Source: Caulobacteraceae bacterium (GTDB lineage Bacteria; Pseudomonadota; Alphaproteobacteria; Caulobacterales; Caulobacteraceae). From it: a DNA stretch of 64,000 nucleotides. The DNA lies in the NCBI GenBank assembly GCA_947475875.1, contig CANJME010000007.1, forward strand, positions 1 to 64,000. Reading direction: 5' to 3'. The notes under the pieces were generated by a model. The model saw nothing but the letters and a program-made list of their open reading frames with translations, had not been told where the DNA came from and ran no database searches. The first letter of the stretch is position 1. Each line of letters opens with the position of its first letter. Shown piece after piece: positions 53,886-60,108 of the stretch. The position numbers were made by a program, and so were the translations under genes.

Positions 53886-54590
53886 ATGAACGCCACAACC
53901 GACGCCCCTGCCCGCCACCTGCTGGTGGTCGACGACGACGACCGGATCCGCGAGCTTCTCAAGGAGTTCCTGACCCGCGCCGCCTTCCGCGTCACCGTGG
54001 CCCCGGATGCGGCCGGCGCCCGGCGGATGATGGCGACGCTGGATTTCGACCTGGTGGTGCTGGACGTGATGATGCCCGGCGAGGACGGGTTCTCGCTGAC
54101 CAAATCGCTCAGAGCCCGTGGCGGGGCGGCGGGGGCGACGCCGGTTCTGCTGCTCACCGCCCGGGGCGAGGCGCGCGACCGCATCGAGGGCCTGTCGCTG
54201 GGCGCCGACGATTATCTGGCCAAGCCGTTCGAGCCGCAGGAATTGCTGCTGCGCATCGAAGCCATCCTGCGCCGGGCCGCTTCCCGGCCTTCGCGGCGCG
54301 AGCCCGTACGCCTGGGCGCCTTCACCTTCGATACCGAGCGCAGCGAGCTCTTTCACGGCGAGACGCTGGTGAGGCTGACCGAAGCCGAAGCACAACTGCT
54401 GCAGCGGCTGGCGCTCAATGCCAACGCCCCCATCGAGCGGATGGATCTGGCCAGCCAGGCCTCCGACGCGGCCGGCCGGGCGGTCGACGTGCAGGTCACG
54501 CGTCTGCGCCGCAAGATCGAGGCCGACCCCAAGAACCCGCGCTATCTGCTTACCGCCCGGGGCGTCGGCTATATGCTGGCGCCCGACTGA
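53886..54590 (+). CDS. OmpR/PhoB-family response regulator
   Basis: A 234-residue regulator. Receiver domain with acidic pocket VVDDDDR, phosphorylation site Asp60 in VVLDVMMPG, Thr in LLLTARG, and Lys in YLAKPFEP. The C-terminal winged helix ends VDVQVTRLRRKIEADPKNPRYLLTARGVGYML. It overlaps the sensor gene by one base. The ilvE-regulator-sensor order is common in alphaproteobacteria (PetR-like). The signal is unknown; it is not adjacent to the Pho genes. Confidence 0.93.
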   Translation: MNATTDAPARHLLVVDDDDRIRELLKEFLTRAAFRVTVAPDAAGARRMMATLDFDLVVLDVMMPGEDGFSLTKSLRARGGAAGATPVLLLTARGEARDRIEGLSLGADDYLAKPFEPQELLLRIEAILRRAASRPSRREPVRLGAFTFDTERSELFHGETLVRLTEAEAQLLQRLALNANAPIERMDLASQASDAAGRAVDVQVTRLRRKIEADPKNPRYLLTARGVGYMLAPD

Positions 54591-55927
54591 TGGCCCTGCC
54601 CCGCCCGCTCGCGCGCCTCTTCGGGCCGCGGATGATCAAGCGCTGGCTGCCCACCAGCCTCTTCGGGCGCTCGTTCCTGATCATTGTGCTGCCCATCGCC
54701 ATCATGCAGCTGGCGGTCACCTGGCTCTTCTTCGTGCAGCACGAAAACGCCATTACCGCGCGCCTGGCCGAGGGTCTGGCCGAGGAGATCGCCTCGATCA
54801 GCCACCAGTATCAGGAGAACCCCGCCAACCTTCCGGCCCTGGTCAAACAGGCCCAGGCGCTCGACCTGTCGGTGATGTTCAAGCCCGAGGACCTGCCCCG
54901 GGACAACCGGCGCAACTTCTTCCTGTCGGTGGACCAGACCCTGTCGAAAGCCTTGCGCGAGCATCTGGGCACGGACCAGAGCTTCTGGTTCGACACCACC
55001 CGCTATCCCTATCAGGTGCCCATCTGGATCAAGGTCGACGGCGGGTCGCTCGCCTTCATTGCGCCCAAGGAACGGGCCTTCGCGACGCAAGGCAGCCAGT
55101 TTGTATTCTATTCGTTGATCACCACCCTGCTGCTGACGGCTGTAGCCCTGTTGTTCATCCGCAACCAGGTGCGCGCCATTGAGCGCCTGGCGAACGCGGC
55201 TGAAGCCTTCGGCCAGGGCGGCGATGTCTCGACCTTCAAACCGCACGGCGCGCGCGAGGTGCGGCAGGCCGGGGAAGCATTCCTGGCCATGCGCGCCAAT
55301 ATCCGGCGGCTGATGGCGTCGGTCAGCCATGACCTGCGCACGCCGCTGACGCGCCTGAAGCTGGAACTGGCCCTGAAAGACCCCTCCGAACGCAACGAGG
55401 GGATGAAGCGCGACCTCGCCGAAATGGAGCACATGATCGACGAGTACCTCGATTTCGCGCGCGGCGCCGGCGGCGAGGCGGCCGAGCCTGTCCGGCTGAT
55501 GGATATCATCGACATGGTGGCGCACGGCGCCCGCCGCTCGGGCGCGGACGTCAGCACCCGTGGCGATCCGGAGCTGGTGGCGCCGGTCAAGCGCGGGGCC
55601 CTGACCCGGGCGATCACCAACCTGACCCACAATGCCGCGGCCCACGCCAGCCGCGTCGAGATCGGACTGACCGAGGCGGGCGGCGATGTGGTGATCACCG
55701 TCGACGACAATGGCCCCGGTATCGATCCGGAACGCTATGAGGAAGCCTTCAAACCATTCACCCGCCTGGACGAGGCCCGCAACCAGAACGAGAAAGGCGT
55801 CGGCCTGGGCTTGGCCATCGTCCGTGACGTGGCCCGATCACATGGCGGCGATGTGACGCTCAGCAAGTCGCCGCTGGGAGGCCTGCGGGCGGAGGTGTGG
55901 CTGCCGGTTTCGGGCAAGCACTCATAA
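54590..55927 (+). CDS. EnvZ-type sensor histidine kinase
   Basis: A 445-residue inner-membrane sensor. Two helices (27-50 and 171-190) flank a periplasmic domain of about 120 residues, then a HAMP domain, the phosphoacceptor His247 in SVSHDLRTPLTR and ATPase boxes N (NLTHNAAAHA), G1 (DDNGPGI) and G2 (GVGLGLAIV). Partner of the upstream response regulator. Confidence 0.94.
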   Translation: MALPRPLARLFGPRMIKRWLPTSLFGRSFLIIVLPIAIMQLAVTWLFFVQHENAITARLAEGLAEEIASISHQYQENPANLPALVKQAQALDLSVMFKPEDLPRDNRRNFFLSVDQTLSKALREHLGTDQSFWFDTTRYPYQVPIWIKVDGGSLAFIAPKERAFATQGSQFVFYSLITTLLLTAVALLFIRNQVRAIERLANAAEAFGQGGDVSTFKPHGAREVRQAGEAFLAMRANIRRLMASVSHDLRTPLTRLKLELALKDPSERNEGMKRDLAEMEHMIDEYLDFARGAGGEAAEPVRLMDIIDMVAHGARRSGADVSTRGDPELVAPVKRGALTRAITNLTHNAAAHASRVEIGLTEAGGDVVITVDDNGPGIDPERYEEAFKPFTRLDEARNQNEKGVGLGLAIVRDVARSHGGDVTLSKSPLGGLRAEVWLPVSGKHS

Positions 55928-55968
55928 GCCAGCCAAGTCAGCGGAGGCGTCGGTCCGGCAGCGGACGT

Positions 55969-56643
55969 TCAGAACTTTTGGGAAGGGTGGGAAGCGGGCG
56001 CCGGGTCGAGGTTGCGGCGCAAGGCGTGGACCGCCTCGGTGATCTGGCCGGGCTTGAGGGTTGAGCGGGCCCAGTCGAACCTGTCCCGCGTCATCGCCCA
56101 GATATAGGTCGCGTCCTGCGCGGGCAGGACCAGCACCATGGCTTCGTCGCTGGCCAGCAGGGCCTGGGTGTCGGCGGCCGCAAGCGGCAGCGGCCGGGTC
56201 AGTTCGGTGAAGCTGGGGAACTTCTCTTCGATCTGGGACTCCAGGGTCGCCAATTCCCGGGACAGTCCGGCCTCCTCGTCGCGCAAGGCGCCCACCTGGG
56301 CCCGCGCGCTGATCGCCTGAAGGCTGGTCCATTGGGTGTCAGCCGCGCTCTGGATGCGTTTGCGCAGGTCGGCAATGCGCCTATTCAGGCTCTCGCGCTG
56401 GCGGACAATGCGGGCAAGGTCGCTGTCGCCCTGGCCCAGTTGGGCCGCCACATGGGTCATGGCGTCGGCAGCCGAAGAGGTCATGGCGCCATGCGCGGCG
56501 GAGAAGGCCTCGGCCCTAAAGATCGCCTGCTGCGCCGCAGGCACGGCCGCGTGCCCGACGGGCCCTGAAAGCAACACGCCTGCGCACACCATAGCCAACG
56601 CCGGCAGGGACAATTGCGACCAGGAAATGGAGAAACGCTTCAT
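55969..56643 (-). CDS. CHAT-family protein truncated before the protease domain
   Basis: A 224-residue protein with a signal peptide (LALAMVCAGVLLSGPVGHA region) and a helical coiled-coil segment (RIVRQRESLNRRIADLRKRI). It then reaches the opening of a CHAT domain: TRPLPLAAADTQALLASDEAMVLVLPAQDATYIWAMTRD. It ends soon after, at SHPSQKF, where the catalytic His/Cys part should follow. Only 41 bases separate its stop from the end of the histidine kinase gene, so the missing half is not nearby. It lies 61 bases after the TPR gene, and fused TPR-CHAT proteins are common, so this looks like a split and then shortened derivative. Confidence 0.7.
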   Translation of the reverse strand: MKRFSISWSQLSLPALAMVCAGVLLSGPVGHAAVPAAQQAIFRAEAFSAAHGAMTSSAADAMTHVAAQLGQGDSDLARIVRQRESLNRRIADLRKRIQSAADTQWTSLQAISARAQVGALRDEEAGLSRELATLESQIEEKFPSFTELTRPLPLAAADTQALLASDEAMVLVLPAQDATYIWAMTRDRFDWARSTLKPGQITEAVHALRRNLDPAPASHPSQKF

Positions 56644-56704
56644 GAATCCGACGCTGCCTTTAGCCGGGCGCAATGGCAACAAGGGGTGGAGACGTTCCGG
56701 TCCC

Positions 56705-58963
56705 TCAAGGCTGATGCGCCAGGGTCCAGGCCGTGGTGACCTGTCTTTCAAAGATGAATGTGTTCTGGCTGAGCCAGACGCGGGCGTCCTCGTCGGCGCC
56801 GGTCGCGCCGCGATCGCGATAGCGCGCCGCCAGAAGCACGCCGGCCTTGGAGACCGCGTCATAGGCGCGTGCCAGGTGTCCCATCTGGGATTCAATAGAG
56901 GCCAGATTGGAATAGGCCGTCGTCATGGCGCGCGCATCGTAACCGCCGCCACTTTCCCTCTTCTGTTCCAAAGTCTGAATGAAACCGGCAAGGAGACTCT
57001 GCGCCTCATCAAGGTTTCCCATTCCCGCAAGGCTGAGGGCCAGGTCGTTGGCGGCGGCCAGGGTGGCAGGATCGGTCTCGCCCTTGACGACCCGCCAGCT
57101 GTCGAGAGCGGTTCGCTGCAATCCCGCCGCGTCTTCAAATTTCCCGGCATTGTAAAACAGGCCGCCGATCAGTTTCGCCGAAGTAATCGAATCGGGGTCC
57201 CGCGCGCCAAACAGGCGCTGCCGGTTCAGCCCGATCCGGCCGGCCAGGTCCAGGGCTTCATCCAACCGGCCCAGCGCTCCCAGGTTCAGCGCCAGGGCGC
57301 TGCCCAGCGACATGGTCGCGCGATCATCATCGCCCAGCACGACTCGCAGGGTTTCGTAGGTCTGCCGGTTCAACGCCTCGGCGTCGGCCACCCGGCCCTT
57401 GTTCAGATAGACTTGGGCCAGCTCACTGATGACGACCAGGGTGTTGGGGATCTGCTGGCCGATATTCTCCCGCTGGGCGGCCAGGGCGCGCTGGTCGGTG
57501 ATCGACGCGGGAAGCAGGCGCCGGGTCGCGGCGAGCAGTTCCTGGTCCAGAACTTCGGCCTCGGCCAAATGGTCCATGGCCAGCAGAATTCCGGCATAGG
57601 CGCTGCCCGCGGCCTGGGCGTTCAGATTGTCCTGGCCGGACTGGCGCCGGCGCACCTCCCAGACATGACGCGCCAGGGGCTCGGCCTCCGCCAGATTGCC
57701 CCGCTGCTTCAGGGTCATGACCAGGGCGGTCTCGAAGATCAGCGTCGAGTCATGCTCGTCGCCCAGGACCTTTCGCAGGGCCGTCAGGCCCTGGCGCTGC
57801 AGGCGTTCGGCTTCCTCAAACCGGTTCAGGTGCGTGAGCGTGCCCGCCAGTATGCCGGCGGCGATGACGGCTTCTTCGCTATCAGGGCCGAACAGGGCCT
57901 GGCGGCCGGCCATGGCGTGGCGCTGCAGGCTTTCGGCCTCGGTGAACTTTTGTTGCTCTTGCAGCACCCTTGACAGCGTTAGTTCGGATTCCAGCGTCTC
58001 ACGGGACTCCTGGCCCGAGAGCCTGCGCCTGACCGCCAGGATCGGGCGCTGAACGGCTTCGGCCTCGTCCATGCGGCCGGCCCGGAAGAGCGCCGCGCTC
58101 ACGCGCTCCCCCGCCAGTAGCGTTCTTGAGTCTTCGTCGCCGTAAGCCTCCCGCAACGTGGTCCAGACCTGGCGCTCGATGACCACCGCGTCCTCCACCC
58201 GGCCCATGAGCATAAGGATCTCGGCCAGGTCCGCGCCGGCCTCGATCGTGTCCGCAGCGGCAAGGCCGCCTCGTCGTTTCAGACTGGCCCACACCTGCCG
58301 CTGGGTCGCTTCACCGCCCACCAGATCGCCCAACTGCTGGTGGAGCAGCATCAGGCCGTCACGGGCTTCCACGGTGTCTGGAGCGTCCGGGCCCTGCGCG
58401 GCTTCATAGGCGGCCAGAAGCGACACCTGCAGCGGCAGGGCCTCGGGATAGCGGTTCAGGTTGCGTAACACTGTGGCCAGTCCGTCTTGCATGCTGAGCG
58501 TCGTCCGGTCGGCAGACCCGAAGGCGGCCAGGGCGGTGTCGTACGCCCAGCGCTGGACGGTCAGGGCTTCTTCATTCCGCCTGAGGAGCGTGAGGGCAAC
58601 GGCGTAGTTCCGGCCGTCGGCAATGGCCGAGCGGCTCTGGTCTCCGCCGGCCTCCCGCCGGGCGGCCCACAGCGTCCGGTAAAGCGCTTCGGCTTCCGCG
58701 CCCCTTCCGGACCGGAGCAGCAACTGGCCGAGGCCTTCGCGCGCGTCCATGCCTTCGAAGCTGTCCTGAATGCCAGCGGCGGTCGCGGCCTGGACGGCGT
58801 TGCGCAGGGTCTGCTCGGCGCCCCTGACGTCCCCGGCGGCGAGCTCGCGCACGCTCGCCTGGGTCATCCGCTCAACTTCGTCGGCCGGCGCCGCCGCGCT
58901 CGCCGCAGAGACCGGAACACCAAGGACGATCGCCAAACACATACTGACGGCCAAGCGTCTCAT
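56705..58963 (-). CDS. Exported tetratricopeptide-repeat protein
   Basis: A 752-residue protein with a signal peptide ending near SAASAAA and about fourteen TPR-like repeats of 40-42 residues, many with the core AEALQRQ or AEALNRQTYE followed by DD/DE-rich turns (for example EDAVVIERQVWTTLREAYGDED). The repeats resemble kinesin-light-chain-like TPRs that precede CHAT domains. No enzyme domain is present. The next gene downstream carries the start of a CHAT domain, so the two together resemble one TPR-CHAT protein. Confidence 0.9.
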   Translation of the reverse strand: MRRLAVSMCLAIVLGVPVSAASAAAPADEVERMTQASVRELAAGDVRGAEQTLRNAVQAATAAGIQDSFEGMDAREGLGQLLLRSGRGAEAEALYRTLWAARREAGGDQSRSAIADGRNYAVALTLLRRNEEALTVQRWAYDTALAAFGSADRTTLSMQDGLATVLRNLNRYPEALPLQVSLLAAYEAAQGPDAPDTVEARDGLMLLHQQLGDLVGGEATQRQVWASLKRRGGLAAADTIEAGADLAEILMLMGRVEDAVVIERQVWTTLREAYGDEDSRTLLAGERVSAALFRAGRMDEAEAVQRPILAVRRRLSGQESRETLESELTLSRVLQEQQKFTEAESLQRHAMAGRQALFGPDSEEAVIAAGILAGTLTHLNRFEEAERLQRQGLTALRKVLGDEHDSTLIFETALVMTLKQRGNLAEAEPLARHVWEVRRRQSGQDNLNAQAAGSAYAGILLAMDHLAEAEVLDQELLAATRRLLPASITDQRALAAQRENIGQQIPNTLVVISELAQVYLNKGRVADAEALNRQTYETLRVVLGDDDRATMSLGSALALNLGALGRLDEALDLAGRIGLNRQRLFGARDPDSITSAKLIGGLFYNAGKFEDAAGLQRTALDSWRVVKGETDPATLAAANDLALSLAGMGNLDEAQSLLAGFIQTLEQKRESGGGYDARAMTTAYSNLASIESQMGHLARAYDAVSKAGVLLAARYRDRGATGADEDARVWLSQNTFIFERQVTTAWTLAHQP

Positions 58964-59316
58964 TGCGATGCACGCTGCCCGTGGACGGCGCCAATGACAA
59001 CCTTCAAACGAGGGGTGGGGCCGGTTTGTCCAAGATCAGGATTAGAGTCTGCCCGGCCAGGTCGGCGCCGTCGGGGACGGATTATGCGCGCCGCTGGTGC
59101 TGTCGGTGACGCGACTGATACAGCGGGCTGGTTTGGCCCATATCTGGAAGCGGTCTACACCGGTCCAGAAGCTACCGGGAACCGGACCCTCCCAACGGCT
59201 CAAAAGAGTCACGACCGGACCACGGTGTGCCGCCAAACGAACTTCCGCTTAGGTTTGAACTCCGTCATCGCCATGGCGTCCGAAAGCGGACATGAGTTGG
59301 GTTATGAGTAAACGGC
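58964..59316. other. Intergenic stretch without a convincing gene
   Basis: About 350 bases between the TPR and proC genes, both on the minus strand. Open frames exist on both strands but have no ribosome site, no family match and no clear codon bias. Expected content is the TPR promoter near 58975-59040 and the proC end. I see no strong hairpin or repeat. Confidence 0.5.
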
Positions 59317-60108
59317 CTAGCCGAGTTCCTTCGCCCGGCTCACCGCCGCCTCGACCGCCTCCTCAAGCAGCGACGGAAACCCGCCTTCTCCCATCAGCAC
59401 CTTAAGCGCCGCTTCAGTGGTGCCGCCGGGCGAGGTGACCTGGCGGCGCAGTTCGGCAGGATCATCACCGCTCTGGCCCATCAAGGCGGCGGCGGAGATT
59501 ATGGTCTGGCGGGCGAGTTTCTGGGCGTCGTGGACTTCGAGGCCGGCTTTCGCGCCGGCCGCCTCCAGCGCCTCGATGAAAGCGTAAAGATAGGCAGGCG
59601 CGGAACCCGACACCGCCGTCGCGGCATCCATCAGCTCTTCGTGGGTCAGATCGACGGTGGCCGCGACCGGATCGAACAGGGCGTGGGCGGCGGCCCGGGC
59701 CACGGAATCGGTCGAGAAGATCGAAGCCACGCCCTTGCCGATGGCGACCGCCGTGGTCGGCATGACCCGGGCCACCTTACGTGGCGCGAAAGCGTCTTCC
59801 AGCACCTGCAGCGAGACGCCGGCGGCGATGGAGACAATGACCGCGTCCATGGACAGCAGAGGTTCGGTTTCGGTCGCCGCGACCTTCCACATCTGCGGTT
59901 TGACGCTGATCACCACGGTGCGGGCCTGGGCCAGCATATTGTCAGGAGGATTGATGTGGCCGGCGGCGAGACTCTCGGGCGAGGGCGTCGGATCGCGCAC
60001 CATTAACTCTGACGGGGCAAACGTTCCCGCATCCAGCCAGCCGCGCACCAGCGCGCCGCCCATGCGGCCACCGCCAAGCAACAGAACAGGGCTGTGTTTT
60101 CCAGGCAT
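59317..60108 (-). CDS. proC: Pyrroline-5-carboxylate reductase
   Basis: Last step of proline synthesis. 263 residues; Rossmann loop LLGGGRMGGALVRGW, and the C-terminal dimer signature SGSAPAYLYAFIEALEAAG with QTIISAA and VTSPGGTTEAAL. Start overlaps the last base of the YbjN gene stop. Confidence 0.96.
   Translation of the reverse strand: MPGKHSPVLLLGGGRMGGALVRGWLDAGTFAPSELMVRDPTPSPESLAAGHINPPDNMLAQARTVVISVKPQMWKVAATETEPLLSMDAVIVSIAAGVSLQVLEDAFAPRKVARVMPTTAVAIGKGVASIFSTDSVARAAAHALFDPVAATVDLTHEELMDAATAVSGSAPAYLYAFIEALEAAGAKAGLEVHDAQKLARQTIISAAALMGQSGDDPAELRRQVTSPGGTTEAALKVLMGEGGFPSLLEEAVEAAVSRAKELG

Follow-up and report, generated by a model that had tools for sequence, protein, structure and literature searches.

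Does the pair formed by a TPR protein and the short protein encoded behind it, both apparently exported, represent a working system that dispenses with a protease, or what is left of one that had it? The two genes lie in a 64,000-nucleotide stretch of a Caulobacteraceae genome (assembly GCA_947475875.1, contig CANJME010000007.1), which is referred to below as the window. The original prediction interpreted them as a split TPR-CHAT system that has lost its protease half, being either a decaying system or a protease-free scaffold in the periplasm. Examination of the locus, its relatives and predicted structures leads us to favor, with a probability of roughly 0.8, the view that these two genes are left over from an operon for an exported TPR protein and a stand-alone CHAT protein, borne on a segment of about 3.4 kb, in which the CHAT gene is cut before its catalytic domain, leaving no protease. 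It is best read as a decayed or dead-on-arrival operon and looks like gene decay of the usual sort, not like a protein of a novel kind; this comes closest to the first of the two options.

Organization of the locus

Both frames of the original prediction, of 752 and 224 residues, are present as described (Table 1). The shorter one, the stump gene, begins 61 nt behind the stop of the TPR gene on the same strand, and the claimed distance of 41 nt between it and the stop of the kinase gene at 55927 is correct. Judged by eye, the N-termini of both proteins resemble signal peptides, and the products, if made, would probably be periplasmic. Of the flanking genes, the first is presumably a histidine kinase, as we take it from its sequence, and the second is assumed to be proC. 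No match to a sigma-70-type promoter or a terminator was found in 55700-59500. A label considered for the TPR protein, NCBIfam FxSxx_TPR, reaches 237.7 bits against a cut-off of 300 and was taken as repeat similarity only. TPR proteins of the window type share a C-terminal motif, AGW.WAHQP or close to it (L075-L079, L107:3263-5926); the corresponding end of the window protein (56705-56745) reads TAWTLAHQP.

Table 1. Features of the TPR/CHAT locus, in window coordinates
Feature	Coordinates	Strand	Remarks
Histidine kinase gene (presumed)	54590-55927	+	convergent neighbour of the stump gene
Stump of exported stand-alone CHAT gene	55969-56643	-	224 aa; N-terminus resembling a signal peptide, then coiled coil, three strands, one helix; no catalytic half
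TPR gene	56705-58963	-	752 aa; Pfam finds many TPR_10/TPR_12 repeats; upstream member of the pair
proC (presumed)	59317-60108	-	borders the insert on the side away from the kinase gene
Segment absent between kinase gene and proC of same-genus genome G001	55908-59315	.	about 3.4 kb; right end ambiguous by 3 bases (CGG)

The 224-residue protein ends before the CHAT domain

The closest relatives of the stump are two CHAT proteins of 587 residues from Caulobacter-type MAGs (L089/L090), with 50-52% identity (51-52% to L009, 50% to L010), whose His and Cys lie in the motifs ATHALMGG and LSACNTA, respectively. In the intact 587-residue form PF12770 scores 191 bits over residues 242-583. Since the stump can be aligned to that form only as far as residue ~212, it represents the region preceding the Pfam CHAT domain, with no PF12770 sequence left, and Pfam reports no CHAT match in it at E <= 1. 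It ends ahead of both catalytic motifs, and its last ~10 residues have no counterpart in any relative. Between the stump and the kinase gene, none of the three minus-strand frames showed any more CHAT sequence, and a PF12770 search of the same genome did not recover the missing catalytic half, its single match being a separate, intact CHAT gene. This latter gene, on contig C1 (L001, G000:C1:75641-79648), adjoins one for a CHASE2-domain protein.

The central claim of the original prediction, that the CHAT gene has lost its protease half, is thus borne out by a TPR/CHAT pair without a catalytic part, as compared with intact relatives of 587 residues bearing both His and Cys. The statement that the protein stops before the catalytic residues also holds, and no hidden CHAT remainder came to light in other frames or in the rest of the genome. 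Its description as a coiled coil plus the beginning of a CHAT domain is only half right: the coiled coil is present, but what follows comprises the first three strands and the helix that precede the Pfam domain.

Predicted structures place the cut in a linker. The model of an intact relative (pLDDT 81.6) shows long helices forming a coiled coil (33-138), strands (164-191), a helix (195-209) and a low-confidence linker (214-231), followed by the CHAT domain; the cut in the stump corresponds to this linker, which we take to be disordered. Among solved structures, the intact model is matched best by Csx29 from Craspase (E 8.6e-11) and by separase (E 7.4e-9), with modest TM-scores of ~0.4 by query length, and the sequence of the intact protein matches no solved-structure chain at E <= 1. 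Modelled alone, the stump yields a pLDDT of 81.9, and a search of solved folds with this model found nothing at E <= 1e-3. A defence-system label was rejected: the PADLOC matches of the stump are weak (E 0.0025 and 0.0078) and lie over the coiled coil, and PADLOC has no match for the TPR protein or for the intact CHAT protein.

Relatives retain the protease, and the stump shows mixed signs of constraint

With the stump as query, matches at E <= 1e-3 were obtained in 59 of 299 genomes of the family. After the two closest proteins come about 15 stand-alone CHAT proteins at 36-42% identity, and among more distant relatives are many fused forms of ~1000 residues or more. Outside the window, every place found at E <= 1e-5 in these 299 genomes retains an open frame of 531 residues or more; in a search of 398 genomes of the order at E <= 1e-15, all 18 matches outside the window have at least 581. 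Hence no recurring short form lacking CHAT was detected at these thresholds. Weaker short matches comprise an unrelated alanine-rich protein in G002 (E 1.7e-4), which was discarded, and a 96-residue frame in G216 (E 3.9e-4). A contig scan that used only the stump recovered no relatives, and one with alignment A2 returned 79 loci (among the best 80), every one with both catalytic motifs. Given that one of the two search patterns of A2 falls within the catalytic half and that the loci were confined to the best 80, this set is biased to full-length forms, and the claim that no short form recurs accordingly rests on the stump-query searches. Orthologues that always lack CHAT, which would have severed the connection to this domain, are therefore not what is observed; the orthologues do carry it. 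Moreover, a signal-peptide-like N-terminus of its own and a length of ~590 residues constitute the normal form of stand-alone exported CHAT proteins in the clade of the stump, so that the second signal peptide, which had seemed an oddity, is not one.

These searches bear on whether the 224-residue protein might function without a protease, as a scaffold or a dominant-negative partner still bound to the TPR protein in the periplasm. The features that would be expected of a selected short protein, and which speak against decay, are the position of the cut at a domain boundary and the confidently predicted fold of the stump. Its codon pattern is likewise intact (GC3 84.9%, as against 79-88% in neighbouring genes), and the TPR gene just upstream is open over its full length. 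However, as a conserved form such a scaffold is contradicted by the relatives, in that none of comparable score is without the protease part; the C-terminal residues resemble those of no relative, and the divergence of the stump is somewhat raised. We accordingly regard this explanation as improbable. A more specific version, in which the stump has been retained as a periplasmic regulator whose coiled coil and first strands of the CHAT fold still dock on the TPR protein and block or mimic a CHAT protease, would be distinctly improbable as well.

The divergence was assessed on an alignment and tree of 30 protein rows covering the shared N-terminal part. Of 17 positions that are conserved across 80% or more of the other rows, the stump keeps 13 and its two sisters all 17, the kept fraction across all 29 other rows ranging from 0.50 to 1.0. 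Its branch measures 0.43 versus ~0.28-0.31 for the sisters, and it is less alike than the sister L090 to 23 of the 27 outgroup rows. Such sequence evidence gives a mixed and weak indication of relaxed constraint; recent truncation explains the pattern, and so would weak constraint.

The pair probably lies on a segment inserted between the kinase gene and proC

In G001, a genome of the same genus, the stops of the kinase gene and proC overlap. The window matches it up to 55907 and then again from 59313, and therefore holds about 3.4 kb extra, near one edge of which lies the cut in the CHAT gene. The C-terminus of the kinase is also altered, reading LPVSGKHS before the stop in the window versus LPA, LPG or LP in five relatives. 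Among 12 genomes the two genes are adjacent in two, separated by 1.85-2.2 kb in two (G006, G018), and unlinked, far apart or on other contigs in eight; in G253 they are ~180 bp apart. As polarised by these few genomes, the TPR gene and the stump likely sit on a segment inserted between kinase and proC. Close to each end of the insert, at 55920-55927 and 59302-59309, stands the 8-mer ACTCATAA, the two copies being inverted relative to one another; this may be due to chance. A repeat pair at the joint (D6, 55989-56011 and 57509-57531, 91%) was put down to chance similarity within GC-rich sequence.

We propose that a segment with a complete TPR gene and the 5' part of a CHAT gene was placed between the two resident genes. 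The CHAT gene would have been severed within the linker that precedes the catalytic domain, most likely upon insertion or by a deletion at the segment edge, and truncation and insertion were probably a single event. The cut gene could not give rise to a protease. The TPR protein may still be made, and the 224-residue product, if made at all, would be a leftover coiled-coil protein, probably devoid of function.

The joint could alternatively be an artefact, with the organism possessing a complete CHAT gene and the contig misjoined at the stump. The genome is indeed a draft of 49 contigs, and the same insert is seen in no second genome among those compared. Nevertheless, the PF12770 search finds no fitting catalytic half in an assembly rated 100% complete, the stump runs into its neighbour inside a 143-kb contig, and a long repeat able to cause a misjoin is absent at the joint, all of which make an assembly error very unlikely.

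Split pairs are a natural arrangement

In the tree the stump groups with the two closest intact proteins (support 97/89), and the next neighbour of this group is a protein from a Rhizomicrobium MAG (L107; 95/93). In this locus an 887-residue TPR gene overlaps a 549-residue CHAT gene by 4 nt, both being intact, and in a Sphingomonadaceae MAG (L119) a 454-residue TPR gene precedes a CHAT gene of 611 residues. The order, TPR to CHAT on the same strand, equals that of the window, with the TPR gene directly upstream and N-termini that by eye look like signal peptides; these pairs differ from the window in that their CHAT proteins are complete. The TPR proteins of L107 and the window are distant (21% identity over 409 residues). 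The existence of such complete pairs implies that a split TPR and CHAT pair is a natural arrangement in which a second signal peptide is normal. Fused forms, which the original prediction suggested be sought among relatives, do occur in the family, as in G183, where both matches fall in one 1008-residue frame, but the window parts are two separate genes rather than one chain, the stump clusters with stand-alone forms bearing signal-peptide-like N-termini and natural split pairs exist, so that a fused gene that was split in the window lineage and then lost its end is the explanation we deem least probable.

TPR genes of this type are found in other settings too. A second one in the same genome is broken too, in line with decay: L072 (G000:C42, 127-705), 45% identical to residues 6-175 of the window protein, ends beside a contig end that encodes the start of a putative IS3-type transposase, and its remainder was not found. 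Two others (L077:3883-5742 and L078:9038-11377) have a VWA/YfbK protein close by rather than a CHAT gene.

The intact system and its relation to known systems

Stand-alone exported CHAT proteins of Caulobacteraceae, represented by L089/L090 and by those of Brevundimonas, resemble the stump in their N-terminus (signal-peptide-like by eye), coiled coil and first strands, and differ from it in their complete CHAT domain with His and Cys and in that they usually lie behind a further exported protein. This exported-looking partner, termed PPC-like here for its C-terminus (Pfam gives it no match), is encoded immediately ahead of the stand-alone CHAT gene at 15 of 19 loci and at 26 of the 79 obtained in the A2 scan (among the best 80). 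It has the C-terminal motif GDGDTNIDL...DHYPVC (e.g. L009:645-1355, L003:2162-2866, L168-L191) and was not found in the genome of the window. The closest intact CHAT gene (L037, L038, L075, L076; G253, G202) is clustered with genes for a response regulator, a histidine kinase, a caspase-like C14 protein, a PPC-like protein, a DUF900 hydrolase and TPR proteins. Among 26 strong PPC-like loci of the family, viewed with 1.5 kb of flank, 15 have the CHAT gene next in line and 11 lack it there. Given that absence of CHAT from such loci is common in the family, a broken copy in the window is unremarkable.

By itself the window pair is thus one more broken gene. It does, however, point to a Caulobacteraceae family of exported stand-alone CHAT proteins beside exported TPR or PPC-like proteins, often absent from otherwise conserved loci, for which a search of the open-licence literature found no paper. 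The PPC-like proteins are natural first candidates for substrates or regulators of CHAT.

In its intact form, we infer that the exported CHAT protein could be a periplasmic cysteine protease of the caspase/separase type, governed by the exported TPR protein, given its predicted fold and the known action of Csx29. The latter is a TPR-CHAT protease that becomes active once its partner binds a target (PMC9729208). Csx29 of type III-E CRISPR (Craspase) is alike in joining a TPR part to a separase-like CHAT protease, and the model of the intact relative matches it; it differs in being a single chain, bound to a CRISPR effector and activated by target RNA according to the same paper, and nothing of that kind was seen in the window pair. 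HetF of cyanobacteria, described as a putative protease with a CHAT domain (PMC8406250), differs in its biology and is comparable to the intact protein by domain only.
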